DNA of 38,389 bases from Campylobacteraceae bacterium. GTDB lineage: Bacteria > Campylobacterota > Campylobacteria > Campylobacterales > Sulfurovaceae. Of the stretch, positions 3,749-24,242 are shown one piece after another (position 1 is the first letter of the stretch; the number at the start of each line of letters is the position of its first letter). A program made the position numbers and the translations under genes. Under the pieces are notes generated by a model. The model did no database searches and was not told where the DNA came from. It saw only the letters and a list, made by a program, of their open reading frames with translations. The DNA lies in the NCBI GenBank assembly GCA_027014605.1, contig JALWDJ010000042.1, forward strand, positions 1 through 38,389, read 5' to 3'.

Positions 3749-3751
3749 TAT

Positions 3752-6259
3752 CTACTCCTTTGACCACTTCTCAATTTTTTTAGAATACTCCTCTAAAATA
3801 CCCTCACCTCTACTATTATTTTCTGCTTGTATATATATATTTAAATTATCAGTATATAAATCTGGTATCATTAAAATCCAGTCGTTATTATCTAGCCAAA
3901 TTTTAACTCCATCTATTGTTGATGATTTTTTACCTTTTGCATCATTTAAAAACATACGCATCATTTTACCTTTTAATGCTTGAGTACATCCTATTTGTGT
4001 AGTTTTATAGTAAAATTTTGGTAGAGAACTAATAATAGTAGAGAGCTTTACATTATGGGTTAACATCATTTCTAATATTTTTAAAGTTGCATACATAGAG
4101 TCTCTATGTGTTGCAAAATCTGTAAATGTAAAGTTTCCTTCACCAGTTGCAACTAAATCATATTTTCTTAAATCTTTATCTTTAAAATTTGAATACTGCC
4201 CTCTCTCTATCTCTACATTTTCAAACTTTACGATATCTGATGCCCATGTAGGTAAAAATACTCTCTTTTTAATACCTATTTTTTTAGCTTCCATATCTAA
4301 AAGCATAAGTACAACAAATAGTGAGGCCTGTTTATCAAGTAGATAACCATTATCACAAACTATATCTAACCTCTGTCCATAAGGATATAGAATAAATCCA
4401 GCATTAAGTTTAAGTGCCTTAATGACTTCACTCATATCTTTATTTGACTGTTTTATTAGACTCTTAATATTTGCTAATCTAGTACTATCTTCATGAGCAT
4501 TAAATATAATATTATCTATATTTAAATCATTCAAAATATTTGGAAATATCTCTGAAGCAATACCATGCATCATATCAACTGCTATTCTGAAATTTGCATT
4601 TTTTAACTTATCTATTTTAAGAAGTAACTCTATCTCCTCTTTATATTTTTTATACTCTTGTTCATGCTCTAAATTATATATTTCACCTATTTTAGAGTAA
4701 TCAACACGACGAAATGATTCTTTAAAAAAAGATTTTTCTATCTTTTTAGCTATATTGCTATCTATTCTTAAAGCTTCATGATTAAAAAATGTAATAACTG
4801 TACTTGTTGGGTCATCTATCTTCTGATTAAAATATATACCTCCAACACATTTATTATCTATAGCAATATGACAACGCATAATAGCAGATGGAATTGCACT
4901 ATAATCAACTACATTTACACCCGAAGAGAGTATTCCACCTAAAAAAGCTCTCTTTAACATTCTTGAATTTTTGTGATAATCTCTTGCCACTAATATAGTT
5001 GAGCCAACAGGAAGCTGTGCTCCAAAAGCCTCTGCTAATTTTGTTACCATCTCACAAGATAACTCTACATTAGATTTTCCAATAACTCTTCCATGTTCAA
5101 ATATGGAGTTTTTATATCTACTACCTAAAATCAAGTTACTACTAACAATTGAGGCATCTTCAATTTTTTTATCTGCCCAGATAGTTACATCTTTTTCTAC
5201 TCTAACTAAATCTCCAATCTCACAACCCTCAGCCAAAATCATTCCTGCCTTAGCTGTAACATTTTTACCTATTATATTATTGTTACAAATTACACAACTA
5301 TCAAATTTTGCACCTTTACCAATAGATACATCTTCCCATATTATACTATTTCTAATATTACTATCTTTTCCAATAGTAACTCTATCTCCAATAACAACAT
5401 TATTTAATTTAATACCCTTTTTAAGGGTAACATCTTCTCCTAAGACTACTGTTCCAATAATCTCTATGCTATTATCTAATTTATACACCTCATCACTATA
5501 GAGTACTCCATCAGGGAAAATCTGTTTTTTACCCTTGATTTTAAAATCTAATCTATTAGATAAGATGTCATCATGAACCTCTCTATAGCTTTCAGGATTA
5601 CCTACATCTCTCCAATACCCTTTGGCATAACCTGCCATTAAGTCAACCCCTCTACTCATTAAGAGAGGAAATAAATCTTTAGCAAAGTCAAAATTCTCTT
5701 TCTCTGGAATATAATCTAATATTTCAGGCTCTATTATATATATACCTGTATTTATGGTATCACTAAATACTTCTCCCCAACTCGGTTTTTCCAAAAACTT
5801 TTCAATCTTCCCATCTTCATTTGCAATAACTACTCCAAACTCTAAAGGGTTATCTACAGAGGTTAGGGTAATAGTTAATTTTGACTCTTTTGATTTATGA
5901 TAGTCAAATATCTTTTGAAAGTTAAAATCTGTTACTAAATCTCCACTAATAATAATAAAATTATCATCTCCAATATGTTCTTGTGCTAATTTAACAGCAC
6001 CTGCTGTTCCATAATCATCATCAGGTACAACATAAGTAATTTTAATTCCAAAATCACTTCCATCTCCAAAATAATCTTTTATAATTTCTGGCTTAAAATA
6101 GAGTAATATAATAAATTCTTCAATCCCTAAATCTTTTAGGGTCATCATTGTATGTTCCATCATTGGTCTATTTGTAATTGGTAACATTGGTTTTGGTCTT
6201 GAGTTTGTAAGTGGTTGTATTCTTGTTCCAAAACCACCTGCCATAATAACTGCTTTCAT
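3752..6259 (-). CDS. NDP-sugar pyrophosphorylase fused to a degenerate phosphomannomutase-like domain
   Basis: An 835-residue three-part protein. Residues about 1-240 are a nucleotidyltransferase (MAGGFGTRIQPLT, KPMLPI, and ISGDLVTDF with the metal-binding Asp) of the mannose-1-phosphate guanylyltransferase or glucose-1-phosphate type. Residues about 260-380 are hexapeptide repeats forming a left-handed beta-helix. Residues about 385-835 have the phosphohexomutase fold. The mutase part looks inactive: the phosphoserine loop (normally TASHNP) is replaced around 478-484 by NQKIDDP, and the Mg2+ loop (normally DGDGDR) reads YPYGQR near 624. I recall similarly degenerate loops in related fusions from other phyla. 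The role is likely sugar-nucleotide supply for surface polysaccharide, or regulation of it; the sugar cannot be told. It heads an operon with pgk. Confidence 0.85.
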   Translation of the reverse strand: MKAVIMAGGFGTRIQPLTNSRPKPMLPITNRPMMEHTMMTLKDLGIEEFIILLYFKPEIIKDYFGDGSDFGIKITYVVPDDDYGTAGAVKLAQEHIGDDNFIIISGDLVTDFNFQKIFDYHKSKESKLTITLTSVDNPLEFGVVIANEDGKIEKFLEKPSWGEVFSDTINTGIYIIEPEILDYIPEKENFDFAKDLFPLLMSRGVDLMAGYAKGYWRDVGNPESYREVHDDILSNRLDFKIKGKKQIFPDGVLYSDEVYKLDNSIEIIGTVVLGEDVTLKKGIKLNNVVIGDRVTIGKDSNIRNSIIWEDVSIGKGAKFDSCVICNNNIIGKNVTAKAGMILAEGCEIGDLVRVEKDVTIWADKKIEDASIVSSNLILGSRYKNSIFEHGRVIGKSNVELSCEMVTKLAEAFGAQLPVGSTILVARDYHKNSRMLKRAFLGGILSSGVNVVDYSAIPSAIMRCHIAIDNKCVGGIYFNQKIDDPTSTVITFFNHEALRIDSNIAKKIEKSFFKESFRRVDYSKIGEIYNLEHEQEYKKYKEEIELLLKIDKLKNANFRIAVDMMHGIASEIFPNILNDLNIDNIIFNAHEDSTRLANIKSLIKQSNKDMSEVIKALKLNAGFILYPYGQRLDIVCDNGYLLDKQASLFVVLMLLDMEAKKIGIKKRVFLPTWASDIVKFENVEIERGQYSNFKDKDLRKYDLVATGEGNFTFTDFATHRDSMYATLKILEMMLTHNVKLSTIISSLPKFYYKTTQIGCTQALKGKMMRMFLNDAKGKKSSTIDGVKIWLDNNDWILMIPDLYTDNLNIYIQAENNSRGEGILEEYSKKIEKWSKE

Positions 6260-10977: not shown

Positions 10978-12783
10978 ATGTTAGTAGCAATTCAAAGAGC
11001 AGTTATACTCTTTTTAGGAGTGCTACTAATAATAAATAGTTCTCTTTTTGCAAGTTTTCATATTTCAAAAGATAAACTATCTAAACTCTCTAAAAATCCT
11101 CAATGGCATAAACTACTACACTTCAAAAAGGGTAGAAGTGAGATAGATGATAAGAGATTTTTTTTTGCTAAAAATGGGAAAATAGACCCAAAAGCAGAAC
11201 TAAAAGCATCTATTAAACAGCTTATTTCAGATAAGAGTGATGATGAGAACTCTACACTCTGTCGTTACCCCTCTCGCTCTAGATGGATTTTAAAAAAATT
11301 ACCTAATTTAAAGAAAGAGATATTTACTCCTAGTTGTAAAAAACTAAATAATGAATTAAAAGAGTTGGGAGCAAAAGAGATAACCCTTGTTTTAGTCTCT
11401 TCACATATAAACTCTCCTGCTTCTGCATTTGGTCATACATTTTTAAGAATTGATAATAATCCAGATACCCCCCTACTCTCCTATGCAGTTAACTATGCAG
11501 CACAAACTAGGGAAGAGAATGGTTTTATATATGCCTATAAAGGACTATTTGGTGGATATAAAGGGCGTTACTCTATAGACCCATACTATAAAAAACTAAA
11601 AGAGTACTCCGACTTAGAACAGAGAGATATTTGGGAATATACTCTAAATCTAACTCAAGAAGAGATAAATAGGTTAGTTCTACATATTTTTGAAATTCGT
11701 CACTTCTATGCAGACTACTTCTTTTTATCTGAAAATTGCTCCTATAATATATTATGGCTAATAAATATTGCTAAGAAAGATAGCAATTTCATTAATAATT
11801 TTAACTTAAAAGCTATCCCTATTGATACAGTAAGAGCAGTTATATCTAAAAATTTGGTAAAAAATAGTATCTATCGTCCATCACAGAGAAAAAAAATTTT
11901 GGCATTAAGTAAAACTATTAAAGAAAATAGAGATGCTTTAGAATTTGCAAAAAGTAGAGAGTATAATTTAACAAAAATAGAAAATCTAAATAGAGAAGAT
12001 AAGATTTCTTCAATTGAATTAGCAACAGCTCTACTAAAAATAGAGCGTTCTGATAATAAAATAGATGAAAAGGAATATCTAAAGGACTTTTTAAAATTAT
12101 TAAAAGCAAGAAGTAAATTAGGAAAAATAGAGAGAGAAAAAATTCCACAACCTCCATCACCTGAGAGTGGTCATCTATCAGCAAAAAGTTCAATATCATA
12201 TAGTAACAATAATAGACTAAAGTTAGAAACAAAAGTATCATATCATGATATTTATGATAGTGATTATGGCTATATTTCAGGAGGATATATTAGTTTTTTT
12301 GATACAAGAATAGAGTATAAAAATAAAAAAGTGAAAATTGATAAAATAGATTTTTTAAGAATAAAATCTTATGCTTTACAAGATGCTATATTTAAACCAA
12401 TCTCATGGGAGGTTGCAACAGGAGGAAAAAGAATTTTCAATAATAAACTAAATAGCTATCTGAAAGCAGGTGGAGGTATCACTTTAGGAAATAATATATT
12501 CTATGGATATACAACTATTACTCCAACTATCTACTATAGAATAGATGATAAAGAGAGTATATCTATAAATAGTGGTTTACTATATAATCCATCAAAATAT
12601 TTAAAATTTGGACTTCTTATATCAGATGAGTGGTTTAGAGATAAAAAGAGCATAAAAGAGTTTAAGCCATTTATAACATATAGTTTTGACCAAAAATCTG
12701 CTCTAAGTTTAAGATATAACTATAAAAATATAGACAAATTAGAAGAGAGAGAACTATCTCTCTCTTGGTTTTGGTACTACTAA
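10978..12783 (+). CDS. DUF4105 (Lnb-like) envelope protein with C-terminal beta-rich domain
   Basis: A 601-residue exported protein; the N-terminus (residues 6-26) is a signal sequence. The DUF4105 domain spans about 130-300 and has the two residues expected for a Cys/His hydrolase of the Lnb/permuted NlpC-P60 type: His153 in ASAFGHTFLRID and Cys254 in SENCSYN. Residues about 390-601 alternate polar and hydrophobic residues, are Tyr-rich and end LSLSWFWYY with a terminal aromatic, suggesting an outer-membrane beta-barrel. The substrate is unknown; a lipid or peptidoglycan amide/ester is plausible. It is co-transcribed with the DUF3015 gene and convergent with nosZ, with a 3-bp gap. One sequon (DENST) is present. 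The start is less certain than the product. Confidence 0.82.
   Translation: MLVAIQRAVILFLGVLLIINSSLFASFHISKDKLSKLSKNPQWHKLLHFKKGRSEIDDKRFFFAKNGKIDPKAELKASIKQLISDKSDDENSTLCRYPSRSRWILKKLPNLKKEIFTPSCKKLNNELKELGAKEITLVLVSSHINSPASAFGHTFLRIDNNPDTPLLSYAVNYAAQTREENGFIYAYKGLFGGYKGRYSIDPYYKKLKEYSDLEQRDIWEYTLNLTQEEINRLVLHIFEIRHFYADYFFLSENCSYNILWLINIAKKDSNFINNFNLKAIPIDTVRAVISKNLVKNSIYRPSQRKKILALSKTIKENRDALEFAKSREYNLTKIENLNREDKISSIELATALLKIERSDNKIDEKEYLKDFLKLLKARSKLGKIEREKIPQPPSPESGHLSAKSSISYSNNNRLKLETKVSYHDIYDSDYGYISGGYISFFDTRIEYKNKKVKIDKIDFLRIKSYALQDAIFKPISWEVATGGKRIFNNKLNSYLKAGGGITLGNNIFYGYTTITPTIYYRIDDKESISINSGLLYNPSKYLKFGLLISDEWFRDKKSIKEFKPFITYSFDQKSALSLRYNYKNIDKLEERELSLSWFWYY
12753..12776. other. 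Perfect 10-bp hairpin at the end of the DUF4105 coding sequence
   Basis: AAGAGAGAGA (12753-12762) and TCTCTCTCTT (12767-12776) form a 10-bp stem with a 4-base loop, seven bases before the DUF4105 stop and 10 bases past the end of the convergent nosZ. There is no U tract on either side, so it is not a textbook terminator. It could protect both 3' ends or slow polymerase between convergent genes. Confidence 0.4.
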
Positions 12784-12786
12784 ATA

Positions 12787-15390
12787 TTAAAATAGATTAG
12801 CATTTTTATCTACCCATTTTAGATACTCAATAATATCCTTAACCTCTTGCTCTTTCATATGCTGATTTGGCATTCTTAAGTTAAAGTAATCGATCATCCC
12901 TTTTACATAAGGCTCTTTATACTTACTAGCTGGGTTCATAATAAAATCTTTAACCCACTGTTCACCATTCTCATGTCTTTGTAAAACACCTGTTAAATCA
13001 GGACCAGAACTTACTTTACCAATAACATGACAACCACTACAACCACCTTCCCCAAATGCTCTCTCACCAGCTTGTGCTGCAGGAGATTGAGGAGTAGCTA
13101 CTTTTCTTACAAGTAAATCTTTAGCTCTAATCCCAACATCAGCAGTCTTAACCATATATTGCCAAATCATATTTTCAAATAGAACAGCTTTTTCATAATC
13201 TCCAGCTTTAACCGCTTCGTCAGATTTCTCTTTCTGCTCTTTAATCTTACTATATTGGTCAAGTGCATCCTCTACAAGGTTTTTAACAACAGGATATTTT
13301 TCATAATGGTTAGCTTTTAAGAACTTAACAACACTCTGAATAACAGCATCAGTTGCACTGTTAACTGCAACAGTCTTATCATATTCAGCTTTTAACTGCT
13401 CTTTTGACATAGATTTCATCTTAAGCTTTTGAGCTGAAACATATTTTTTATTAGGGTCCTTAACCATTAGATAACCCATCATTTCTAGGTGTAACGCAGA
13501 ACAGAACTCTGTACAATAATATGGAAATACTCCCTCATTATCTGCTTTAAAAGTTAATGATACTGTTTTTCCTGGTTCTAAGGATGCATGAACATTATAA
13601 TCATCTACAGTAAATCCATGAGTCTCATCTTCTGCTCTCTCAAGATTTGTTAAGTAGAATGTTACAGTGTCACCTTTATTTACAGTAACTCTCTCTGGAT
13701 TAATATGAGAACGAACTACAGTTCCATATACATAGACATGATTACCCTTTCTCTCAATATGCTCCTGCCCTGCTAGAGTCTTACCTGGATGAGAATTACC
13801 TGTAAATGGATTTGTTCCCATCTTATATCTAACTTCAGGATGTAACTTACTAGCTCTAATTGCTACAGCTTGATGAGGTTCACCTAGAGGTATTGGCATA
13901 TCTACGAGCATATCCATCTTTTTACCACTAATATCAATTAGTTGATGATTTTGTGGATGAAGTGGACCAACTGGGTCAAATCTATCAATTGCAAGTTTAT
14001 TTAGTGCTATGATATATTTTCCTTGTGGGTCTTCAGATTTACCCTCCATTCCACATAGGTGACCAATATTATAATGAACATTTATTTTATCTAAAACTTT
14101 AAGATTTTTATAATCCCATTTTACAACTTGACTATCAACATAAAGTGAAGTATAGATTACACCATCTTTCCATTTTGCACCAAATTGATTGTGTAAAGGT
14201 CCAAGACCTAATTCAACTTGACCGTGAAGTGCCTTTTTCATGTCTAAAATAGGGATACCATACGGATCTTTTCCTGAATATTCATGATTATCTATAAGTT
14301 TTTTAATTTTAGACCACTTATATACAGATGCGTGAGTATCCAATTTACCACAAACAACAATATATTCACCATCAGGAGATACATCAACACCGTGAGGTGA
14401 TTTTGGTTCAGGAACTAAAAATAGTGCATCATTTTTAACAGCTACTTCAATAGGAATAACTTTATGACCATTTATAATTTTTACATTTTTAGGGTCTTTT
14501 GATAATTTGTAAAGTTTCTCCCAATTATATACATGTAGATAGTCTGTATCATTTCTACTACAACCAGCTTCAAATGGAGGCATACCAACCTCTATTCCAC
14601 CTGTGTACATCTCTGAGTTAAATGAGTTTGTAAATCCCCAACCAGCAGATGCCTCTTTACCAGAGTCTGATAAATCTTGCATATATGGTGGTAACTCAAT
14701 AGTAAAAGAGTCATTTGCATCAATTCTTCCAATTTTTGGATCAAAGCTCCATACTGTTACACCACCTCTATAAGTCTCTTTATACTCTTCTATTGGGTGA
14801 TAGTTATTATCTAATGGTGCAGCATATTGACAAGCCTCTAAAATATGTTTAGAGTTTGGTGTAAAAAATGAGCCACCATGTTCAGATTTAAATACAGGAT
14901 TTACAACAATCTGCTTAGTTACAAAGTCATTTAAATCAATTACTGCAATTCTAGGATTTGCTTTATCATTAATAACAAGCCATTTACCATCATATTTACC
15001 ATTAGTCTCAGATAGTGCTGGGTGGTGTGTATCTCCCCAAGTTATCTGTTTACCTCTAATTTTACCTTCTGCTAAAATTTTTTTTGTATCGTCATCATAC
15101 CCATACCCTTGCCAAGGTTCAGGTGTAAATACAGCTATATATTTAAGTATCCTCATAGTTGGAACACCATAAACAAGCATATGACCAGATTGTCCACCTG
15201 AACTAAATACGATAAACTCATCTCTACCACCTGTTGGTGTATAGGTTTTAGCTGCATGGATTATATCAGTCTCAGTTAAACCTCTTTTTTTCATTATCTT
15301 AGATAACTCACCACTACTAGCAGTTAAAAATGTTGCCGCAACTGTAGTACCAATAAGTATCTTAGATAACTTATCAAAGATATTACCCAT
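12787..15390 (-). CDS. nosZ: Nitrous oxide reductase, clade II, with C-terminal cytochrome c domain
   Basis: Reduces N2O to N2 in the periplasm. The 867-residue protein has a Sec-type signal peptide (residues 1-25, no twin arginine), the sign of clade II rather than clade I NosZ. The beta-propeller carries seven His candidates for the CuZ tetranuclear cluster: DTHHP (two, about 121-122), EHGG, SPHGV, GLGPLHN, NIGHL and GEPHQ. The cupredoxin domain holds the CuA site, HGFTVDDYN and CTEFCSALHLEMMGY near 626-637. A linker leads to a haem c domain with CSGCH near 784-788, which lets small cytochromes donate electrons directly. AAGGAG lies before the ATG. It is transcribed away from its maturation genes and follows the regulator and sensor-like genes. 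Confidence 0.98.
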   Translation of the reverse strand: MGNIFDKLSKILIGTTVAATFLTASSGELSKIMKKRGLTETDIIHAAKTYTPTGGRDEFIVFSSGGQSGHMLVYGVPTMRILKYIAVFTPEPWQGYGYDDDTKKILAEGKIRGKQITWGDTHHPALSETNGKYDGKWLVINDKANPRIAVIDLNDFVTKQIVVNPVFKSEHGGSFFTPNSKHILEACQYAAPLDNNYHPIEEYKETYRGGVTVWSFDPKIGRIDANDSFTIELPPYMQDLSDSGKEASAGWGFTNSFNSEMYTGGIEVGMPPFEAGCSRNDTDYLHVYNWEKLYKLSKDPKNVKIINGHKVIPIEVAVKNDALFLVPEPKSPHGVDVSPDGEYIVVCGKLDTHASVYKWSKIKKLIDNHEYSGKDPYGIPILDMKKALHGQVELGLGPLHNQFGAKWKDGVIYTSLYVDSQVVKWDYKNLKVLDKINVHYNIGHLCGMEGKSEDPQGKYIIALNKLAIDRFDPVGPLHPQNHQLIDISGKKMDMLVDMPIPLGEPHQAVAIRASKLHPEVRYKMGTNPFTGNSHPGKTLAGQEHIERKGNHVYVYGTVVRSHINPERVTVNKGDTVTFYLTNLERAEDETHGFTVDDYNVHASLEPGKTVSLTFKADNEGVFPYYCTEFCSALHLEMMGYLMVKDPNKKYVSAQKLKMKSMSKEQLKAEYDKTVAVNSATDAVIQSVVKFLKANHYEKYPVVKNLVEDALDQYSKIKEQKEKSDEAVKAGDYEKAVLFENMIWQYMVKTADVGIRAKDLLVRKVATPQSPAAQAGERAFGEGGCSGCHVIGKVSSGPDLTGVLQRHENGEQWVKDFIMNPASKYKEPYVKGMIDYFNLRMPNQHMKEQEVKDIIEYLKWVDKNANLF

Positions 15391-15457: not shown

Positions 15458-15471
15458 TTGACTTAGGGCAA
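15458..15471. promoter_or_regulatory. Crp/Fnr-family box upstream of nosZ
   Basis: TTGAC-TTAG-GGCAA matches the dyad of FNR/NNR-type sites (TTGAY-N4-RTCAA) except for one base in the second half. Its centre lies about 74 bases before the nosZ ATG. An A/T-rich -10 candidate (TATATT, 15440-15435 on the minus strand) would put the transcription start near 15424-15427 and the box near -40, the class II activator position. A Crp/Fnr regulator is encoded 0.8 kb away. The site is seen; the binding protein is inferred. Confidence 0.5.
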
Positions 15472-15490: not shown

Positions 15491-16237
15491 TTAATATTTT
15501 TTTAATTTTTTTAATTCAGCTTTTAATCGTTTTAATTTAATATTTGAGTGCATTAACTCCTCTAATGCCTCAATTATTAAATCCTCTTCCTCTCTTAAAT
15601 CAATATTAATAAGTATATCTTCAGCTTCATTATCTATCTTATCTATATCTTTTATTGATTTATCTATTTTATTTATTAATCTGTCTAAACTATTATCTAT
15701 TTTTAGAATGTGATATGCTAAATATAATAACAGTATAAATAGAAATGCTAATAGGATATACTCTACTTTTTTATAGAAATTAGAGATTAAAATATTACGC
15801 TTTTGATTTATATCTAATAGTCTATCAAACTCTATAACTAACTCTATATTTTGATTATATATATCTTTGACTATTTTTTCTAAAACTATATTTGAATATG
15901 GAGTTATAGTTTTCATCTCTCTTTTAAACTCTTGAGTCTTATAATAAAATCTATTTAAGAGTTTAATTATATGCGCAGCTTCTCTTTTTTCTAAAATAGA
16001 ATTTATATTTTGATAAAAGTGTTTAATTGAGCTATCTAATTTATTAGTTGATACAACACTATGTCTATATATATAAAATATCTCTTTAGATATATCTTGA
16101 GTAGATGCTTTTTGTTGATTTATCTTTTTTATAAAATTTATATTATTTTGATTTTCATCTGAGATTATATTAAGAAGCAGAACTAATGCTAATAATAGTA
16201 TTAAAATAGTTGTGCCAATTATTTTTATTCTTTTCAT
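15491..16237 (-). CDS. Orphan two-TM sensor-like membrane protein
   Basis: A 248-residue protein of no family I can name with confidence. It has a short basic N-terminus, TM1 (about 6-23), an all-helical periplasmic segment of some 135 residues (24-158), TM2 (159-178), and a cytoplasmic tail of about 70 residues that is acidic and then lysine-rich, with coiled-coil character. This is the topology of chemoreceptor or histidine-kinase input modules (the periplasmic part resembles four-helix or DAHL-type sensor domains), but no kinase, HAMP, methyl-accepting or cyclase domain follows. It contains no cysteine. It lies 8 bases after the Crp/Fnr gene and 100 bases before nosZ, so a role in sensing N2O/NO/nitrate or in membrane support of NosZ is possible but unproven. 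Confidence 0.6.
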   Translation of the reverse strand: MKRIKIIGTTILILLLALVLLLNIISDENQNNINFIKKINQQKASTQDISKEIFYIYRHSVVSTNKLDSSIKHFYQNINSILEKREAAHIIKLLNRFYYKTQEFKREMKTITPYSNIVLEKIVKDIYNQNIELVIEFDRLLDINQKRNILISNFYKKVEYILLAFLFILLLYLAYHILKIDNSLDRLINKIDKSIKDIDKIDNEAEDILINIDLREEEDLIIEALEELMHSNIKLKRLKAELKKLKKY

Positions 16238-16245
16238 ATATTATC

Positions 16246-16896
16246 CTAATTTTTATAGATTTCTTCTAGTCTATCTCTATTTATTATAGAAATAATACCT
16301 TGTTTAATAGAAATTATATTATCTCTTTTTAATCTACTTAATACTCGTGATAGAGTAGCTGGTTGAATATGCAAAATTAGTGCAATATCATGTCTTTTTA
16401 ATCTATTAAATCTATTTAAATCATCTCCTAACATCATAGCAACTTTAGATACGGCATCAAATATAAACTCTCTATCTATTAAAAGTTTTATTTTATTAGA
16501 TTGATAAAGTACTCTATTTACAAATTTTAAAGTTAATATATTAGAATTTAAAAATTTTTTTTTAAAAAATTTATAATCAATAGTCAAAATTGATGAGACC
16601 TCTATTGATGATATATTGGAAAAAAAAATCATACTATCTTCTGTTAAATTATCTATTTGAGAGATAAGCATATCTTTTTCTATAAAATATAAAAATATCT
16701 CATTATTATATTTATCTATCTTATAAGCCTTAGCTAAACCTCTAATTAAAAATATTAATTTATCTGTTCTATCCTTTTCATAAAATAAAATAGAATTTTT
16801 CTTATAGTTTTGAACTGTAGAGATTGAATATAGCATATCAATTTGATTACTATCTAAACCTTTAAATAGTGATAGCGATTTAATTATATTTCTCAT
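16246..16896 (-). CDS. Crp/Fnr family transcriptional regulator (Cys-less, nos-linked)
   Basis: A 216-residue protein with an N-terminal cyclic-nucleotide-binding-like beta-roll (about 1-115), a dimerisation helix (about 120-145) and a C-terminal winged helix-turn-helix (RHDIALILHIQPATLSRVL, about 168-186). It contains no cysteine at all, so it cannot bind a [4Fe-4S] cluster like FNR; it also lacks the cAMP-binding RxS motif. This suits the Nss/NNR/DNR-like regulators that respond to NO, N2O or nitrate, and Nss proteins control respiration in Wolinella. It is divergent from nosB and upstream of the sensor-like gene and nosZ, with a Crp/Fnr-type box before nosZ, so control of this cluster is the natural inference. 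Confidence 0.88.
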   Translation of the reverse strand: MRNIIKSLSLFKGLDSNQIDMLYSISTVQNYKKNSILFYEKDRTDKLIFLIRGLAKAYKIDKYNNEIFLYFIEKDMLISQIDNLTEDSMIFFSNISSIEVSSILTIDYKFFKKKFLNSNILTLKFVNRVLYQSNKIKLLIDREFIFDAVSKVAMMLGDDLNRFNRLKRHDIALILHIQPATLSRVLSRLKRDNIISIKQGIISIINRDRLEEIYKN

Positions 16897-16992
16897 TTCC
16901 TACTTTTTAATATTATTGATGAAACAATTATAACATTTTTAAAAGAATTTAAAACAACCTTTAAAAATTAGTTAATTTTTATAGTCTTATTG

Positions 16993-17001
16993 TGATATAA
17001 T
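16993..17001 (+). promoter_or_regulatory. Extended -10 promoter of the nosB operon
   Basis: TGATATAAT is a perfect extended -10 element 58 bases before the nosB ATG. The -35 region is poor (TAATTT), as is usual for activator-dependent promoters. A GTTAA half-site at 16971-16975 and its imperfect partner centre about 40 bases before the predicted start, where a Crp/Fnr activator could bind. The element itself is clear; the activator site is weak. Confidence 0.5.
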
Positions 17002-17058
17002 TCAACACACATATATTTAAATTATATTTATTATAAATATAACTAAAGGACAAGTAGT

Positions 17059-17838
17059 ATGCATCCAAGTTTAATTAAATCTCGAGTTTTTGCAGGATTA
17101 GCATTAATTATTTTAATAGTAGCATTTATACTACCCATAGTATCTTTTCATGGTGTAATGAATAAAATTGATAGTGGAAAAACTGATGAGATATCAGAAT
17201 TTTCTAAAACTATCTGGAATATCTATAATCATGGTAGATATAAATCGGTATCGACACCAAAAGAGGCATACAATAATCTTGATAAGATGATAGAAGAGAG
17301 TGCAGAGATTGGAGTTGCTTCAATTCCAATATGGGCAGTATCACTTGAAGCACCAAACTACCCAAAAGAGGCATTTCCACAAGGTATTCCCGTATTTTTT
17401 CACTTTGATGGATATAGTGGAGAGGTTCATGAGATGAATACTATTAATCACTATGTAGGTATGGACCCTATGTGGGTTGGAGGGCATATTGAAAGAGCTA
17501 TTGGACCTTATGCGCTACTAACTTTAGCACTAATTATGATATTATTTATAGCTTATAATAATAAAATATTAACATATTTAATGCTTATCCCTGTAATCTT
17601 ACCACTACTATTTGTAGCAGATTATGCCTATTGGCTCTATTGGTTTGGACATAACCTACATGATTGGGGGGCTTTTAAGATTAAACCATTTATGCCAACA
17701 GTATTTGGAGATGGGAAAATAGCACAATTTACAACCCACTCCTACCCAACTATTGGATTTTATTTATTAATTGCAATTAGTCTATTGAGTCTATTAGCAT
17801 TTTTTGCAAGACGAAAAGCATTAAAAGAGACAAAATAG
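17059..17838 (+). CDS. nosB: NosB-like membrane protein of clade II nitrous oxide respiration
   Basis: A 259-residue inner-membrane protein with one N-terminal helix (about 8-30), a soluble loop of about 110 residues rich in Trp, His and acidic residues, then three C-terminal helices (about 150-168, 170-190, 229-248). The segments HFDGYSGEVHEM and FGHNLHDWGAFKIKPFMP carry conserved-looking His/Met residues. Position at the head of the nosDGC1C2HFY series identifies it as NosB, a membrane protein confined to clade II clusters and needed for N2O respiration in Wolinella succinogenes; its exact job is unknown. AAAGGA precedes the ATG. In Wolinella nosB follows nosZ directly; here nosZ is on the other strand. 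Confidence 0.82.
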   Translation: MHPSLIKSRVFAGLALIILIVAFILPIVSFHGVMNKIDSGKTDEISEFSKTIWNIYNHGRYKSVSTPKEAYNNLDKMIEESAEIGVASIPIWAVSLEAPNYPKEAFPQGIPVFFHFDGYSGEVHEMNTINHYVGMDPMWVGGHIERAIGPYALLTLALIMILFIAYNNKILTYLMLIPVILPLLFVADYAYWLYWFGHNLHDWGAFKIKPFMPTVFGDGKIAQFTTHSYPTIGFYLLIAISLLSLLAFFARRKALKETK

Positions 17839-17842
17839 TTAT

Positions 17843-19060
17843 ATGTTATCATCTATTAAGTATCTTATACTATTTTCCACTCTATTAGTAGCAAATATAT
17901 TACAAGATACTATTGATAAAGCCTCATCTGGAGCTATATTAAAACTTCCTAATGGAGTCTATAGAGGCTCTATTTTAATAGATAAACCCATCTCTATAAT
18001 TGGAATGGGAGATAGTGTTATTATAGATGGACTTGGAAAAGGTAGTGTTATTACTGCTAAAGGTTCTTATATTACACTAAAAAATTTAACTATCACTAAT
18101 AGTGGTTCACGACATGAAAATCTTGATGCAGGAATTAAACTTAGCAATGGTAGTCAAAATGAGATAAGTAACTGTAGAATTAAAAACTCTCTATTTGGTA
18201 TAGATTTACAGATGGTAAATAGCTCTATTATTCAAAATAACTATATAACTTCGAAAAATTTACCACTTGGACTTAGAGGTGATGGGCTAAGACTTTGGTA
18301 TAGTAATGATAATGTCATAAAAGGTAACCATCTATATAAATCAAGAGATATGGTTGTATGGTACTCACACGGTAATAGAATTGAGAAAAATCAAGGAGAG
18401 TGGAGTAGATATTCGCTACACTTTATGTATGCAGGTAAAAATTTTGTAAAAAATAACCACTATAAATTCAATAGTGTTGGTATCTTTTTTATGTATTCAC
18501 AAGATACCATAGCTACAGGTAATATTATAGAGAGTTCACTTGGTGCTACAGGTATGGGAATAGGATTAAAGGATGCATCAAACTTTACTCTAAAAGATAA
18601 CACTATACTATATTGTGCACAAGGAATGTATATAGATAGAAGCCCTTTTGAACCAGATACACATAATTGGATAGAGCATAATAGACTCCTCTATAATGCA
18701 GAGGCGATACATTTTCACTCTTTGAGTATTAATAATATTATTAAAAATAATACTATACAAGGAAATATAGAGGATATTGTAAATGATAGTAAAGCAGATA
18801 GGGGTAAGGAGGAGACAAATTTAGTTATCAATAACTATTGGGATAACTATAAAGGGTTTGATAGAGATAATGATGGTATAGGAGATACATCTCATCAAGT
18901 ATATAAATATGCTGACCAGATGTGGGTTTATAATCCTGATGTAAAATTTTTTTATGGAAGTCCAATAATATCAATACTAAATTTTTTAGCAAAATTAGCT
19001 CCATTCTCAAAACCACTATTTTTGCTAGAGGATAAAAAACCAAGAATAGATAAAATTTAA
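17843..19060 (+). CDS. nosD: NosD, periplasmic copper-insertion protein
   Basis: A 405-residue periplasmic protein with an N-terminal signal peptide (about 1-17) and a right-handed parallel beta-helix made of CASH/PbH1 repeats (NGVYRGSILIDKPISIIG, then repeated N-x-I and G-N-x-I rungs from about 60 to 320). The C-terminal NNYWDNYKGFDRDNDGIGD motif is typical of NosD. With the NosFY ABC transporter it is needed for assembly of the CuZ cluster of NosZ. It starts four bases after nosB. The last 35 residues include a hydrophobic stretch (IISILNFLAKLAPF), as is common in NosD. Confidence 0.94.
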   Translation: MLSSIKYLILFSTLLVANILQDTIDKASSGAILKLPNGVYRGSILIDKPISIIGMGDSVIIDGLGKGSVITAKGSYITLKNLTITNSGSRHENLDAGIKLSNGSQNEISNCRIKNSLFGIDLQMVNSSIIQNNYITSKNLPLGLRGDGLRLWYSNDNVIKGNHLYKSRDMVVWYSHGNRIEKNQGEWSRYSLHFMYAGKNFVKNNHYKFNSVGIFFMYSQDTIATGNIIESSLGATGMGIGLKDASNFTLKDNTILYCAQGMYIDRSPFEPDTHNWIEHNRLLYNAEAIHFHSLSINNIIKNNTIQGNIEDIVNDSKADRGKEETNLVINNYWDNYKGFDRDNDGIGDTSHQVYKYADQMWVYNPDVKFFYGSPIISILNFLAKLAPFSKPLFLLEDKKPRIDKI

Positions 19061-19070
19061 AAGGAATAGC

Positions 19071-19805
19071 ATGGCTAAAGTAGAAACAGATAGAAGAAAG
19101 TTTATAAAATACTCTACTCTAGGAGTATTTGCACTTATTACAGTAGGTGGAGTTGCTATAAGTCCCTATTTGGTAAAACCTGAAAATAGATTAAGACCAC
19201 CAGGGGCATTAAGTGAAGATGAGTTTTTAGGACTCTGTATTAAATGTGGACAGTGTCTTCAAGTCTGTCCCTATCACTCTATTAAACTAGCAGATATTGC
19301 TAAAGGAATGGGGGTTGGAACACCTTATATAGATGCTACTAGAAGAGGTTGTTATGCCTGTAGTGCTGTTCCATGTGTTTTAGCATGTCCAAGTGGTGCA
19401 TTAGATCATAATTGCTCTAAGCCTGAAGATATAAAAATGGGAGTAGCCATATTAGAAAATCCTAATACCTGTTTAGCAATTAATAAAACTCCTCTACCAG
19501 ATAACTATCTTGATAAGATGATTAAATTTAATAACTCTGTAAGAAATAGAACTCCTGAAGAGGATGAGTTACTTAAAAAGATGAGTGGTTATAAAGGAAA
19601 ACAGTGTACTCTATGTGCTGATATCTGTCCTATTCCAAATCCTATCAGTGCTATTGCTATGGTTCCTCATAGTAAAGGTGGATATAAACCTGAGATTTAT
19701 GATGGATGTGTTGGTTGTGGTGCTTGTGAAGATATATGTCCAACCTCTAAACCATCAATTATTATAAAGCCTAGAACTACATATAATGAGATTTATCAAA
19801 GTTGA
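19071..19805 (+). CDS. nosG: NosG, Tat-exported four-cluster ferredoxin (NapG-like)
   Basis: A 244-residue periplasmic iron-sulfur protein. The N-terminus has a twin-arginine signal (TDRRKFIKYS at 6-15, followed by a hydrophobic stretch). Four [4Fe-4S] motifs follow: C56-x2-C-x2-C-x3-C66, C94 to C106 (the variant CYACSAVPC-x3-C), C179 to C186, and C213-x2-C-x2-C-x3-C223. NapG/NosG partners the membrane ferredoxin NosH as a quinol dehydrogenase that feeds electrons to the periplasm. Here it is flanked by nosD and the cytochrome genes, so the acceptors are probably NosC1/NosC2 and NosZ. A tatA gene occurs 10 kb downstream. Confidence 0.93.
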   Translation: MAKVETDRRKFIKYSTLGVFALITVGGVAISPYLVKPENRLRPPGALSEDEFLGLCIKCGQCLQVCPYHSIKLADIAKGMGVGTPYIDATRRGCYACSAVPCVLACPSGALDHNCSKPEDIKMGVAILENPNTCLAINKTPLPDNYLDKMIKFNNSVRNRTPEEDELLKKMSGYKGKQCTLCADICPIPNPISAIAMVPHSKGGYKPEIYDGCVGCGACEDICPTSKPSIIIKPRTTYNEIYQS

Positions 19806-19813
19806 GGATAGAG

Positions 19814-20389
19814 ATGTTAAATAATCAAAAAGTAAAATTCCTATTTATAATACTAATATTAATTTTAGTTGGTTGTGAAGATAATAAAAAGAGAGATAAA
19901 CAATCAACTCAAATCTCAACTCCCAAAATTGAAGTTATTGAAGGTAATGGCACAAAAGAGATTAAAGTAGAAGCTAAAAAAAAGGATAATATTACTATTA
20001 AATCAAAAAATAGTAACTCTTTTTATTATGATAAAAAGGGTGGTAATGAGAAAGAGTCACATAGAACTGCTCTTGATGCCTATACTCATATTAGAAGTCC
20101 TTATGAGAGAGTTCAGGTATCTCTATTAGTTAGACAACTAAGTAGTAATTTTAGATTAAAATGTTCTGCTTGTCATGATGATTACGCTAATGGAGTAGTA
20201 GGACCATCACTTTTAGGTAGAGATGAAGATTATATCTATAATAAGATTATGGATTTTAAAACAGGTAAAAGAGATAATCCTTTTATGAAAGATTTATTAG
20301 CAAAAATGAGTAATAAAGAGATTAAAGGTATTGCAAAAGAGATATATGAATTTAATATTCAAATTCAAAAGATGAGGATAAAAAGATGA
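19814..20389 (+). CDS. nosC1: NosC1, monohaem cytochrome c lipoprotein
   Basis: A 191-residue monohaem cytochrome. I chose the ATG at 19814 because GAGG lies six bases upstream; the in-frame TTG at 19802 has no Shine-Dalgarno. The N-terminus is hydrophobic and ends in a lipobox (LILVGC, lipid anchor at Cys21), followed by a charged linker of about 80 residues and the haem site CSACH (117-121) with a compact C-terminal helix domain. It matches the position and type of NosC1, proposed to carry electrons from NosGH towards NosZ. The nosC2 start overlaps its stop. A sequon (EGNGT) occurs in the linker. Confidence 0.85.
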   Translation: MLNNQKVKFLFIILILILVGCEDNKKRDKQSTQISTPKIEVIEGNGTKEIKVEAKKKDNITIKSKNSNSFYYDKKGGNEKESHRTALDAYTHIRSPYERVQVSLLVRQLSSNFRLKCSACHDDYANGVVGPSLLGRDEDYIYNKIMDFKTGKRDNPFMKDLLAKMSNKEIKGIAKEIYEFNIQIQKMRIKR

Positions 20390-20886
20390 AAAATATAGTT
20401 GTAGGAGTATTAACACTCTTAATCTTAGCTACTATGGGATATGTTGCTTCTCAAGGTGAAGCATATAATGGTGGAGAGCATGGAAAAGTGATAAAAGATA
20501 TAGGTAAAAAGAGTACAAAAGTTACTAAAATAACTAATGAAAAGAGTGATAGAGAGAAAGAGCAAGAAGAACTAACTCATCTAAGGGAGAAAGCTGGAAA
20601 TATCGGTGGATTTAAAGTTAGTGATGAGTATAAGAGTAAATGTGCATCATGTCATGGAGTTGATGGTAGTGGTATGCAGTATGGTAAAAAACTTATGGGA
20701 CCTAAAATATTTGGACAGAGTGAAGAGGAGATATATAAAAAGTTAGATGACTTTAAATCAGGAAGAGTAGAGAATATGATTATGAAAGGATTATTAATGC
20801 ATCTAAGTCAAGATGATTTAAAGAGATTTGCAAAAGAGATAGGAGAGTTTCCAGCTCGTGCTAAAGCACTAAAAGATAAAAAGTAG
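20386..20886 (+). CDS. nosC2: NosC2, small monohaem cytochrome c
   Basis: A 166-residue cytochrome with an N-terminal hydrophobic segment (about 4-21; a signal peptide or uncleaved anchor), a charged linker of about 55 residues, and one haem site CASCH (86-90). Met residues in GMQYGKKLMGPKIF are candidates for the distal ligand. Its C-terminal region (EEEIYKKLDDFKSG through KRFAKEI) parallels NosC1, so the two look like diverged duplicates. It overlaps nosC1 by four bases (ATGA) and precedes nosH. By analogy with Wolinella it belongs to the electron-transfer module to NosZ. Confidence 0.85.
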   Translation: MKNIVVGVLTLLILATMGYVASQGEAYNGGEHGKVIKDIGKKSTKVTKITNEKSDREKEQEELTHLREKAGNIGGFKVSDEYKSKCASCHGVDGSGMQYGKKLMGPKIFGQSEEEIYKKLDDFKSGRVENMIMKGLLMHLSQDDLKRFAKEIGEFPARAKALKDKK

Positions 20887-20904
20887 TAGAGATTAGGAAT
20901 AGAG

Positions 20905-21810
20905 ATGGATATATACAACATTAGAGCAACAATTAGAAATACAACTTTTTTATCTACATTTTTTAAAAAAGATAGAGATGGAAAAACAAAGATTAGTTAT
21001 AGAATGAAGAGATGGATATTGGTTATCTCTATTCATCTACTATTCTTTTTATCATTCTTTATAGATATTCAGACACTAGAGGGGACACTTAATGGCTCAA
21101 GATTTTTAGGATTTCATCTTATAGATGTATTTACAACGCTAGAGATGTTTCTAGCAAAACACCATCTACATACAAATATTATAATTGGCGTTACTACTAT
21201 AATTATATTTTATCTATTGGTTGGTGGTAGAAGTTATTGTGCTTGGGTATGCCCTTATGGACTCTTAAGTGAGATTGGAGAGAAGTTACACGATAAATTA
21301 GTAGCTAAAAAGATAATTAAAAATAGAAAATTTGACCATAGAGTAAAATATCTCTTTTGGACTATGTTTCTAATTCTCTCTGCTACAAGTGGATATTTGG
21401 TATTTGAGACTTTTAATGTTGTTGGAATTTTAAGTAGATTTATAACTTATGGTTGGAGTTTAGCACTTGCTTGGGTATTGGTTGTATTTTTAATAGAGGT
21501 ATTCTACTCAAGAAGAGCATGGTGTAGTTATGTATGTCCAATAGGTACAACTTATGGTATGATAGGAAAAGCATCGGCATTTAGAGTTGAGTGGAATGAT
21601 AATTGTGACCACTGTATGGTCTGTCATGATGTCTGTTTTGAAAATCAGGTATTAGAAATTACAAAAGCAAAATATGATAAACAGAGAGAAGAGAAAAAAA
21701 TCAAAAAAGAGTATATAACAGGAGCTGATTGTACTCTATGTGGTAGATGTATAGATGTCTGTCACGCTGATGCTCTAAAGTTTGATTTTAGGTTAAAGAG
21801 TTTAGTTTAA
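20905..21810 (+). CDS. nosH: NosH, membrane-bound ferredoxin quinol dehydrogenase (NapH-like)
   Basis: A 301-residue protein with about four membrane helices (35-55, 90-108, 148-168, 182-202). Two Cx3CP motifs (C112/C116 in YCAWVCPYG and C207/C211 in WCSYVCPIG) lie at membrane boundaries as in NapH, and two [4Fe-4S] sites follow on the cytoplasmic side (C234-C244 and C276-C286). NapH/NosH oxidises menaquinol with its partner NapG/NosG. The second ferredoxin motif is canonical; in the first, the Pro after the last Cys is replaced by Phe. It lies between nosC2 and nosF in the usual clade II order. Confidence 0.93.
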   Translation: MDIYNIRATIRNTTFLSTFFKKDRDGKTKISYRMKRWILVISIHLLFFLSFFIDIQTLEGTLNGSRFLGFHLIDVFTTLEMFLAKHHLHTNIIIGVTTIIIFYLLVGGRSYCAWVCPYGLLSEIGEKLHDKLVAKKIIKNRKFDHRVKYLFWTMFLILSATSGYLVFETFNVVGILSRFITYGWSLALAWVLVVFLIEVFYSRRAWCSYVCPIGTTYGMIGKASAFRVEWNDNCDHCMVCHDVCFENQVLEITKAKYDKQREEKKIKKEYITGADCTLCGRCIDVCHADALKFDFRLKSLV

Positions 21811-21811
21811 T

Positions 21812-22450
21812 ATGATAGAGATAAAAAATGTTACTAAAAGATTTGATAAGACTATCTCTCTAAATAATATAACTATAGATTTTAATATAGGTGAGTCTAT
21901 TGCTCTAATGGGTGCAAATGGAGCAGGTAAAACAACTCTTATTAGAGCGATTTTAGGTTATTATCATCTTGATAGTGGCTCTATCTTCGTAAATAGTTTA
22001 AATCCTATTAAAGATAGGGTAGAGGTTTTAAAACATATCAGTTTTGTACCTCAACTTCCACCACCTATAAAATTAAATATTGGTGAATTATTAGACTATG
22101 TATCTATAAGTTCAGATATTAGTATTGATTTAATTAGAGAGTATGCTAATGAGCTGAAGTTAGATATAGATAGCAATCTAAAAAAGTCATTTTTTAAACT
22201 AAGTGGAGGAATGAAGCAGAAACTTCTTATTGCCATAAGTTTAGCAAAGCAGAGTGATATTATTATCTATGATGAGCCAACAGCAAATCTTGACCCAAAA
22301 GCAAGAGAAGATTTCTATAGACTTTTAGAAAAAAGCTCTAATAATAAAATTATGCTATTTGTAACTCATAGATTAGAAGAGGTTAGCTCTTTAGTTAATA
22401 GAGAAGTATATATGGATTTGGGAAATGTTATTTCAGATAAAAAAATTTAG
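21812..22450 (+). CDS. nosF: NosF, ABC transporter ATPase
   Basis: A 212-residue ABC ATPase with Walker A GANGAGKTT (34-42), Q-loop near 81, signature LSGGMKQ (130-136) and Walker B IIIYDEP (150-156), followed by the H-loop His in FVTHRLEE. It is somewhat short but complete. NosF energises NosY and, with NosD, supplies a copper or sulfur species for CuZ assembly. It starts one base after nosH and overlaps the next gene by 26 bases. Confidence 0.94.
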   Translation: MIEIKNVTKRFDKTISLNNITIDFNIGESIALMGANGAGKTTLIRAILGYYHLDSGSIFVNSLNPIKDRVEVLKHISFVPQLPPPIKLNIGELLDYVSISSDISIDLIREYANELKLDIDSNLKKSFFKLSGGMKQKLLIAISLAKQSDIIIYDEPTANLDPKAREDFYRLLEKSSNNKIMLFVTHRLEEVSSLVNREVYMDLGNVISDKKI

Positions 22451-22901
22451 CCTATTACTATTAATATTATTTATTGGTTGTAGCAATAGTAAAGACTCTA
22501 GCTCAATGAAAAAGATACATTGGGATAGAGATATGTGTGAATATTGTAAAATGGTTGTAAGTGATAGAAGTTATGCTGTAGAGGTAATAAATCCTAAAAC
22601 CAATAGATATTACCTATTTGATGATATTGGTTGTACTATATTATGGTTTAAACAGAATAATATAGCTTGGGAGAAAGATGCAATAATATATATTAGTGAT
22701 GCAAAGAGTCAAAAATTTATTAATGCAAAAGAGGCATATTATACTTTAGGTAAATTAACGCCTATGGATTATGGATTTAGTGCCTATAAATCAAAAGATG
22801 AGGTAAAAGCAAAAGAGTTTTTTAGATATGATGAGATGAGATTAAAAATCTTAAGAGGAGAAACTATGCAAAATCCATCAATTAGAAAGGTATATAAGTG
22901 A
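22425..22901 (+). CDS. nosL: NosL-like copper chaperone lipoprotein
   Basis: A 158-residue lipoprotein (lipobox ILFIGC, Cys19). The motif DMCEYCKMVV (Cys38, Cys41, Met43) and the following YYLFDDIGC are the NosL family signature for Cu(I) delivery to NosZ on the periplasmic side; the rest has the two-lobed NosL pattern (KFINAKEAYYTLG). It lies between nosF and nosY, overlapping nosF by 26 bases and nosY by four, so it is translationally coupled to the transporter. A second, Cys-free NosL-like protein follows nosY. Confidence 0.85.
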   Translation: MLFQIKKFSLLLLILFIGCSNSKDSSSMKKIHWDRDMCEYCKMVVSDRSYAVEVINPKTNRYYLFDDIGCTILWFKQNNIAWEKDAIIYISDAKSQKFINAKEAYYTLGKLTPMDYGFSAYKSKDEVKAKEFFRYDEMRLKILRGETMQNPSIRKVYK

Positions 22902-23746
22902 ATATAAGAAATTCAAAATATAAAAATCTATTTTTAGTCTCATATTTAGATTTAAAAGAGTCTATTAGGTCAAAATGGTTTTTAATATACTCCATAGTCT
23001 TTGGTGGCTTAATAGCACTATTTTTTATAGCAGGGGTAACAGAGTCACAAGTGATGGGTTTTAGTGGTCTTAGCAGACTGCTACTTATGTATATACAGAT
23101 TACAATAGTCATATTACCTATCTTTATACTTATTACAACTGTTAGGTCAATATCTAATGATAGAGATAGCCATATATTAGAGTATATGTTATCTTTCCCC
23201 ATATCTCTAAAAGAGTACTATTGGGGAAAACTATTAGGTAGATTTATAACTGTATATCTACCTGTTCTATTTGCAATGATTATAGCTGTAGTCTATGGTG
23301 TTACAAAGGGTGCAACTGTTCCTTGGGAACTTTTTTTTCTATATATAGGGCTTCTATTTGCTATGAGTAGTTCATTTTTAGGTATCTCTTTTCTAATATC
23401 ATCATTTGTAAAATCTAGTGAAGTAGCTCTTGGATTGGCATTTTTTATATGGATATTTCTACTTAGTTTTATAGATATTGCTCTAATCTCGCTAATGTTA
23501 AGCCAAAGAGTTAGTAGTGAGTTAATTATATTTATTAGTCTCATTAACCCTATGGAGATTTTTAGAGTCTCTGCTATATCTCTATTTGACCCACAACTAA
23601 CTGTAATGGGACCTGTTGCATTCTATATCTTAGATATATTTTCACAAAAGGTATTTGTACTACTATCTATCTTATATCCTACACTCTTAGGGTTAGGGTT
23701 AGCATTTTTAGGTAATAGAATATTCCAAAAAAAAGATTTAGTATAA
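22898..23746 (+). CDS. nosY: NosY, ABC transporter permease
   Basis: A 282-residue integral membrane protein with about six helices (from roughly residue 28, ending 245-270) and the SNDRDSHILEYMLSFPISLKEYYWGKLLGR segment typical of ABC-2/NosY permeases, where the coupling helix meets NosF. The start is a GTG with AAAGG seven bases upstream, overlapping the stop of the NosL-like gene. With NosF and NosD it forms the transporter for CuZ maturation. Confidence 0.93.
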   Translation: MNIRNSKYKNLFLVSYLDLKESIRSKWFLIYSIVFGGLIALFFIAGVTESQVMGFSGLSRLLLMYIQITIVILPIFILITTVRSISNDRDSHILEYMLSFPISLKEYYWGKLLGRFITVYLPVLFAMIIAVVYGVTKGATVPWELFFLYIGLLFAMSSSFLGISFLISSFVKSSEVALGLAFFIWIFLLSFIDIALISLMLSQRVSSELIIFISLINPMEIFRVSAISLFDPQLTVMGPVAFYILDIFSQKVFVLLSILYPTLLGLGLAFLGNRIFQKKDLV

Positions 23747-23756
23747 GGAGTTACAT

Positions 23757-24242
23757 ATGAGAAAAATTTTACTTATTAGTTTAAGTTATTTTCTATTTGC
23801 ATCAGAGAATAATAGCACTTTAGATATTATAAGTTATAATAAAAATGCAACAGGTTTTATTAGAAATCTAAAGCTATACAAATATCCATCTTGGGTATCC
23901 AAAATTATATTGAGTAGTGGTAAGGAGCTATATTTCTCTTCACCAAAATCTATGTTTGAGTTCTATCTAAGACCTGCTAAATGGCCAGAGTTTAAGATAA
24001 AGAGTGAAGATGATTTTAAAGAGATTTATGTAACAGATTTTAAAACACTTAAACCAATTAATGCTAAGGGTGCTTTTTTTGTATATGGTAGCAATAAAAT
24101 ATCTCCAGCAGGAGATGATTTAATCCCTTTTAGCTCATATCAAGAGGCCAAGAACTTTATGAAATCTAATAACGGTAAGAGAATTTTTAACTTTAAAGAG
24201 ATAAGCCAAGGGCTTATTAATTGGTTAAATGATAGTTTATAA
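23757..24242 (+). CDS. Second NosL-like protein, lacking the copper-binding Cys/Met motif
   Basis: A 161-residue exported protein (signal peptide about 1-16, MRKILLISLSYFLFA). It follows the NosL pattern: a Lys/Tyr-rich segment, SGKELYFSSPKSMFEFYL, then KPINAKGAFFVYGSNKI, DDLIPFSSYQEAKNF and a final GKRIFNFKEIS. There is no cysteine anywhere, and the usual Cys-x2-Cys-x-Met site is replaced by KYPSWVSKII. AAGGAG lies six bases before the ATG. Place in the cluster (after nosY) corresponds to nosL of Wolinella. It may bind copper through other residues, partner the first NosL, or have a structural role. One sequon (ENNST) is present near the N-terminus. Confidence 0.7.
   Translation: MRKILLISLSYFLFASENNSTLDIISYNKNATGFIRNLKLYKYPSWVSKIILSSGKELYFSSPKSMFEFYLRPAKWPEFKIKSEDDFKEIYVTDFKTLKPINAKGAFFVYGSNKISPAGDDLIPFSSYQEAKNFMKSNNGKRIFNFKEISQGLINWLNDSL

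Follow-up and report, generated by a model that had tools for sequence, protein, structure and literature searches.

The described systems closest to the locus presented here are the nitrate sensors NarX and NarQ, the chemoreceptor McpN and the Nss regulators of Wolinella succinogenes. In McpN, Arg61 of the N-box ([IVL]-[ND]-x-A-G-x-Q-R-M-L-[ST]-Q) forms hydrogen bonds to nitrate, and recognition of this ligand is lost in the R61A variant, according to the part of the source available (PMC6381276). Lysine or serine at the position of this arginine leads to loss of ligand sensitivity in NarX, and the R50K form of NarQ is described as a putative apo form, as given in excerpts of a further study (PMC7247690). 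Three Nss regulators have been reported in W. succinogenes, of which NssA mediates the response to nitrate, and the Nss-type responses of Campylobacterota to nitrate, NO and N2O are reported as physiology, with no sensor given in the accessible sections of the review (PMC6682613).

The present work concerns a gene (15491..16237, minus strand) of the window, i.e. the whole 38,389-nucleotide stretch of DNA analysed, which encodes a 248-residue protein. Its reading frame, family comparison and structure model identify it as the short nos-clade form of a family of membrane sensor-like proteins, labelled here TMS. The gene follows that of a Crp/Fnr-family regulator devoid of cysteine (16246..16896, minus strand) after a gap of 8 bp, and it is followed after 100 bp by nosZ of clade II (Sec-dependent; 12787..15390, minus strand), the product of which carries a C-terminal cytochrome c (TIGR04246, 873 bits; Pfam Cytochrom_C). 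All three genes have the same orientation, such that the arrangement described in the sequence-only reading agrees with the ORF coordinates. The regulator is recognised by its subfamily profile and by Pfam (HTH_Crp_2 and cNMP_binding; PF00027, 29.2 bits, and PF13545, 39.5 bits, both above cut-off). Divergently oriented is a nos accessory cluster (17059..24242, plus strand; ORFs, with NosL and the cytochromes identified by Pfam), which we take to comprise nosB, D, G, C1, C2, H, F, L and Y, several of these names being assigned by gene order. On the other side, a 601-residue ORF (10978-12783, plus strand) is convergent with nosZ.

The TMS reading frame contains no internal stop, and it is not a chance ORF, because a 75-76% identical copy occupies the same place in another genome, the dN/dS ratio is low (about 0.18-0.25, from 0.137/0.78 or 0.155/0.615) and relatives are present in many genera. 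The AlphaFold2 model of the protein (48 sequences, mean pLDDT 87.9) is all-helical, with helices at residues 2-59, 65-83, 85-109, 115-211 and 218-247. A probable first transmembrane helix (TM1, about residues 8-25; 16163..16216, minus strand), placed by eye from the hydrophobicity of the sequence, is continuous in the model with helix 1 of the periplasmic bundle. The periplasmic helical domain follows (about residues 26-159; 15761..16162, minus strand), and the fourth helix of the model passes through a probable second transmembrane helix (TM2, about residues 160-177; 15707..15760, minus strand) and reaches residue 211 in the cytoplasm. The two hydrophobic helices, with limits read from the sequence, are separated by about 134 residues. 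In Pfam and NCBIfam, the protein matched no family of kinases, HAMP domains, MCPs or cyclases and gave coiled-coil noise only; the model and both databases agree with the topology initially proposed, namely an input module with transmembrane, periplasmic and cytoplasmic helices that lacks these outputs. The designation of the protein as an orphan does not hold, since relatives of the family occur across the Campylobacterales.

Most of these relatives are about 300-330 residues long and contain a HAMP-like helix-connector-helix segment. In the model of a full-length nos-clade relative, a helix extends to residue 207 and is followed by a 16-residue connector (208-223) and by helices at 224-275 and 283-317; the connector with its flanking helices is predicted to form a HAMP-like arrangement, succeeded by a helical hairpin. 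The segment is absent from the window protein and from its 75-76% identical relative, and the window protein ends about 70 residues past TM2; having lost this segment, the window copy could signal differently or weakly. The most constant positions among 105 sequences are Q47 in the sensor domain and I222 in the last helix (each 100%), together with E218 and D219 (99%). The C-terminal helix bearing E218, D219 and I222 (15512..15586, minus strand) is the presumed output, and it is a candidate for contact with the regulator, because it has been kept through both the change in the nitrate motif and the loss of the HAMP-like segment. Neither a kinase core (DHp and catalytic domain) nor the MCP signalling hairpin was matched in the window protein or in the family members scanned, the best MCPsignal value being a non-significant 0.14.

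The constant partner of TMS is the Crp/Fnr regulator. In a sample of genomes from the same family, a TMS match was obtained in 12 of 150, and a Crp/Fnr gene of one subfamily lies directly upstream in all 12 (with partial reading at L014 and L016). The subfamily was then defined by a profile threshold of E <= 1e-42 across 398 Campylobacterales genomes, 128 of which code for a total of 144 such regulators. TMS lies directly downstream of 140 of the 144 (126 with a listed TMS and 14 added on reading the DNA), is absent in two, and is undecidable in a further two, which end at a contig edge (G480 and G215:C7). The two regulators devoid of TMS (G181, L173:4117-4812; G320, L182:1382-2038) are located beside napA, with no TMS between or after, and they represent natural cases for the action of the regulator without TMS. 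With start codons assigned by a mechanical rule, the paired genes range from overlapping by 47 bp to being 14 bp apart; at L172 the regulator is present and overlaps the extended TMS start. Seven of seven further loci, selected by their match to the nap-clade profile, show the same order of regulator and then TMS. The initial suggestion that orthologues should be checked for Crp/Fnr neighbours is answered by this adjacency, and in the members read the proteins have such neighbours and are free of kinase fusions.

Eight TMS matches had no listed regulator. One of these has a regulator on reading (G182), another begins at a contig edge (G334), and four were left unread (G435, G445, G446 and G455). 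The TMS matches of G029 and G500 proved on reading to be other proteins, and the two L103 proteins of G029 were excluded from the N-box counts given below. Regulator-TMS pairs were also observed in further families (L203, L204 and L206-L209), where the stretch read contained no napA and no nosZ.

The TMS family is divided into two clades, one linked to nap and the other to nos, and the window protein belongs to the latter. Used alone as a query against the genome contigs, the window protein gave no match, whereas the family alignment retrieved 58 loci. The hosts of these 58 named nos-clade loci are mostly Sulfurimonas, in addition to Sulfurovum and metagenome genomes of Arcobacteraceae. In 46 of the 58, TMS is followed immediately by nosZ, at a distance of 10-217 bp; of the remaining 12, three (L118, L167 and L170) lie so close to the end of their contig that it stops within 65 bp, and the others have no nosZ within 500 bp. 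One nos-clade TMS (L108:5235-5882, G459) is broken into two overlapping frames, with an open regulator frame before it and an open nosZ frame after it. Among the 36 nap-clade loci read, napA occurs within 1 kb downstream in 18, and several others adjoin moaA-like genes; many nap-clade proteins are about 450 residues long and have two PilJ stretches.

The division into clades is common to both partners: of 104 pairs, an identical set of 67 makes up the nos clade in the TMS tree and in the Crp tree, with support of 1.0 in each. Across 47 nos loci, the distances of TMS correlate with those of the regulator at 0.79 and with those of NosZ at 0.65, and the partial correlation between TMS and regulator given NosZ is 0.71. 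From the matching clade splits and the distance correlations, the regulator-TMS pair appears to have been duplicated and to have travelled as a unit. TIGR04246 nosZ is present in 11 of the 12 TMS genomes of the same-family sample versus 49 of the 138 others, in which no TMS is listed (Fisher p = 0.0002, uncorrected for kinship). These 49 genomes show that nosZ does not require the pair.

The ancestry of the periplasmic domain becomes apparent through the nap-clade relatives. Pfam PilJ matches were obtained in all 10 nap-clade proteins scanned (E 1e-14 to 1e-34, above cut-off), and the nap-clade profile matches the solved structures of PilJ (5e-16), McpN (8e-12) and NarQ (3e-5). The nos-clade profile in turn aligns with that of the nap clade along its entire length (8.5e-46), and BLASTP with the single window sequence finds a nap-clade protein bearing the nitrate motif at 9e-15. 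The PilJ family itself (PF13675) was not matched by the window protein, and in the nos clade only weakly, in 3 of 48 proteins (best 0.039). On these comparisons, the periplasmic domain of the window protein is a distant relative of, and derived from, the PilJ/NarX-type nitrate-sensor domain, and the profile search against sensor-domain families proposed at the outset leads to this relationship by way of the nap clade. A fold search also places NarQ high, alongside many other helical bundles; on that account this match was not taken as proof of membership.

The nitrate site itself differs between the clades. Of 36 distinct proteins of the nap clade, 25 have the N-box in exact form and 35 have G..RML; in the alignment, the motif residues are kept as R (37/37), G (36/37) and M (37/37). 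None of 68 distinct nos-clade sequences has the N-box. In the window protein, the site in register with it comprises residues 36-47 (16097..16132, minus strand), with N40-x-x-K43 according to the alignments and the published motif definition. At the ungapped equivalent positions of the nos clade, lysine (K43) replaces arginine in 67 of 68 sequences and asparagine (N40) replaces glycine in 63 of 68, while Q47 is present in all 68. A three-residue deletion of the N-box was considered for this clade and rejected, as the residues are substituted without any gap both in the BLASTP match and in the full alignment. Very probably, the nos clade does not bind nitrate in the manner of NarX, because lysine at the arginine position abolishes sensing in that protein, an analogy with the published variants. 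Since the substituted residues are themselves conserved, the sequences suggest a site which is changed rather than dead.

Further matches to the nap-clade (PilJ) profile occur in the genome of the window itself, at L210:932-1831, L211:952-1860 and 2960-4825, and L212:3162-4829, and the L212 protein contains INLAGKQRML near a likely signal peptide. No Crp/Fnr gene of the subfamily lies alongside these matches in the stretch read.

The genes near the pairs are preceded by boxes of the Crp/Fnr type. Among 50 distinct regions upstream of nosZ, 44 contain the exact sequence TTGA-N6-TCAA in the last 200 bp; it likewise precedes napA in 9 of 12 regions and nosB in 16 of 40, compared with about 1% of shuffled regions. 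In the window, the nosZ box (15458..15471, minus strand; TTGCCCTAAGTCAA), found by the box scan 81 bp upstream, has one mismatch. A weaker Crp/Fnr-like box, also with one mismatch, is located in the interval between the regulator and nosB (16992..17005, plus strand; GTGATATAATTCAA); about one shuffled region in five contains a box with a single mismatch. As a diagnostic of the TMS-paired regulator the nosZ box was rejected, given that 11 of 20 control genomes of the family, which have nosZ but no listed pair, contain it in exact form. The boxes fit control by some Crp/Fnr protein, and not by this regulator in particular. The cAMP phosphate-binding motif was scored as absent (0/104) in the partner regulators, by a pattern of our own.

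The genome which we take to be that of W. succinogenes (G528) codes for three Crp homologues by the regulator profile, in agreement with the three Nss regulators reported (PMC6682613). In G449, a genome taken to be that of Sulfurimonas denitrificans, both the nap-side and the nos-side pair are present. One of these lies beside napA and is followed by a TMS bearing G-x-x-R, and it is 45-46% identical to the nap-side regulators of four f18 genomes. This regulator is probably NssA, because these identities approach the 44.8% published for a nap-side regulator of Nitrosophilus labii versus NssA (PMC11539149, from the excerpt available). The window regulator, a nos-side paralogue, is 35.5% identical to the probable NssA. 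The other two Crp homologues of G528, which are more distant and include one beside nosZ, have no TMS neighbour; if the nosZ-side regulator is NssC, the reported N2O response would need no TMS. In the same genome, nosZ (L218:6022-9925) is split in two by an opposite-strand ORF that resembles a transposase, and both halves match nosZ.

The reading favoured here, which we consider reasonably probable, is that of a kinase-free transmembrane sensor which would signal to the adjacent Crp/Fnr protein, being of the nitrate type in the nap clade and having a changed ligand, or independence of ligand, in the nos clade. In a signalling module of two genes, TMS would be the membrane sensor and its Crp/Fnr neighbour the second component. 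A change in the periplasmic bundle would be relayed through TM2 to the cytoplasmic helices. There the C-terminal helix, with its E218-D219-x-x-I222, would touch the Crp/Fnr dimer and thereby determine how actively the dimer binds DNA, with no phosphorylation step. Nitrate is the most likely signal for the nap-side pairs; those on the nos side would probably not answer to nitrate, and may respond to another periplasmic cue or have lost control by ligand. The regulator would then act on the Crp/Fnr boxes before nosZ. Within this scheme, the homology, the pairing, the co-descent, the missing nitrate motif and the boxes are seen in the sequences, and we infer the direct contact, the ligand, the direction of control and the target genes. 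An input module serving the adjacent regulator had already been suggested in the sequence-only reading, and it is strongly supported by the adjacency in 140 of 144 cases, the identical clade splits and the homology to PilJ/NarX.

Other explanations account for parts of the same evidence. A sensor topology without an output might represent the input module of another kinase or of a chemoreceptor array, with the Crp neighbour incidental, and the same genome does encode other PilJ-type proteins; this is improbable, however, as the protein has no MCP tip or kinase domain and its co-descent with the regulator exceeds what NosZ explains. The shorter length of the window copy relative to most of its relatives might likewise mark it as the remnant of a decayed histidine kinase, yet a kinase domain is missing from every family member scanned, the ORF is intact with a dN/dS of about 0.18-0.25, and the C-terminal helix is conserved, which renders such an origin scarcely credible. 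The earlier alternative of support for NosZ is also disfavoured. A protein that helps to assemble or support NosZ or NapA at the membrane, and is not the sensor of the regulator, would be consistent with nosZ following TMS immediately in 46 of the 58 loci of the nos clade and with napA lying within 1 kb downstream in 18 of the 36 of the nap clade, but the regulator is the constant partner, relatives being found by napA or by neither gene, and pairs away from both genes keep it. The periplasmic domain is moreover of a sensor type, and 49 of 138 genomes without TMS have nosZ, so that a supporting role seems quite improbable.

A less remote alternative, which we nonetheless regard as rather unlikely, is that the nos-clade TMS is a tether blind to ligands, which holds the Crp/Fnr protein at the membrane or in one state without sensing a small ligand. 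The signal would then enter elsewhere, through the regulator itself, the state of the membrane or the abundance of the protein. The lack of G-x-x-R in the nos clade, the insensitivity of NarX to ligand when lysine occupies this arginine position (PMC7247690, in the excerpts available) and the missing HAMP-like segment of the window copy are in line with such a tether. Against it stands the conservation of N40 (63/68), K43 (67/68) and Q47 (68/68), which suggests a kept function over free drift.

The kinase-free sensor and its regulator may have a wider significance. The findings suggest a so far undescribed route by which a nitrogen-oxide signal crosses the membrane to the genes of nitrate and nitrous-oxide respiration. 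No description of the regulator-TMS pair was found in the open-access papers searched, a collection outside which most subscription papers fall. Tentatively, and as a possibility only, the pairs could form a distinct kinase-free class across the Campylobacterales, in which a NarX/PilJ-type sensor and a dedicated Crp/Fnr protein were duplicated as a unit and the N-x-x-K of the nos clade reads a different nitrogen-oxide-related cue, possibly N2O; we know of no N2O receptor. The pair offers a simple system in which kinase-free transmembrane signalling to a Crp/Fnr protein could be tested, and the nap and nos clades provide a natural comparison for the question of how a nitrate site acquires a new use.

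In comparison with the known systems, TMS shares with NarX and NarQ the succession of transmembrane helix, four-helix bundle and transmembrane helix, and in most relatives the HAMP-like part; the nap-clade proteins also keep the nitrate-binding G-x-x-R, and their profile matches NarQ. Unlike NarX and NarQ, TMS has neither a kinase core nor a response regulator, its partner being a Crp/Fnr protein, and the nos-clade members lack G-x-x-R. With McpN (PDB 6gcv) it has in common the PilJ domain, with an exactly conserved N-box in 25 of the 36 distinct proteins of the nap clade, but it is devoid of the chemoreceptor signalling domain, and the window protein of the N-box. As for the Nss regulators, the window regulator differs from the probable NssA in being a nos-side paralogue, and a membrane partner of Nss goes unmentioned in the published passages considered. 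It is nevertheless of the same regulator family as NssA, NssB and NssC of W. succinogenes, and the probable NssA gene is itself paired with a TMS.
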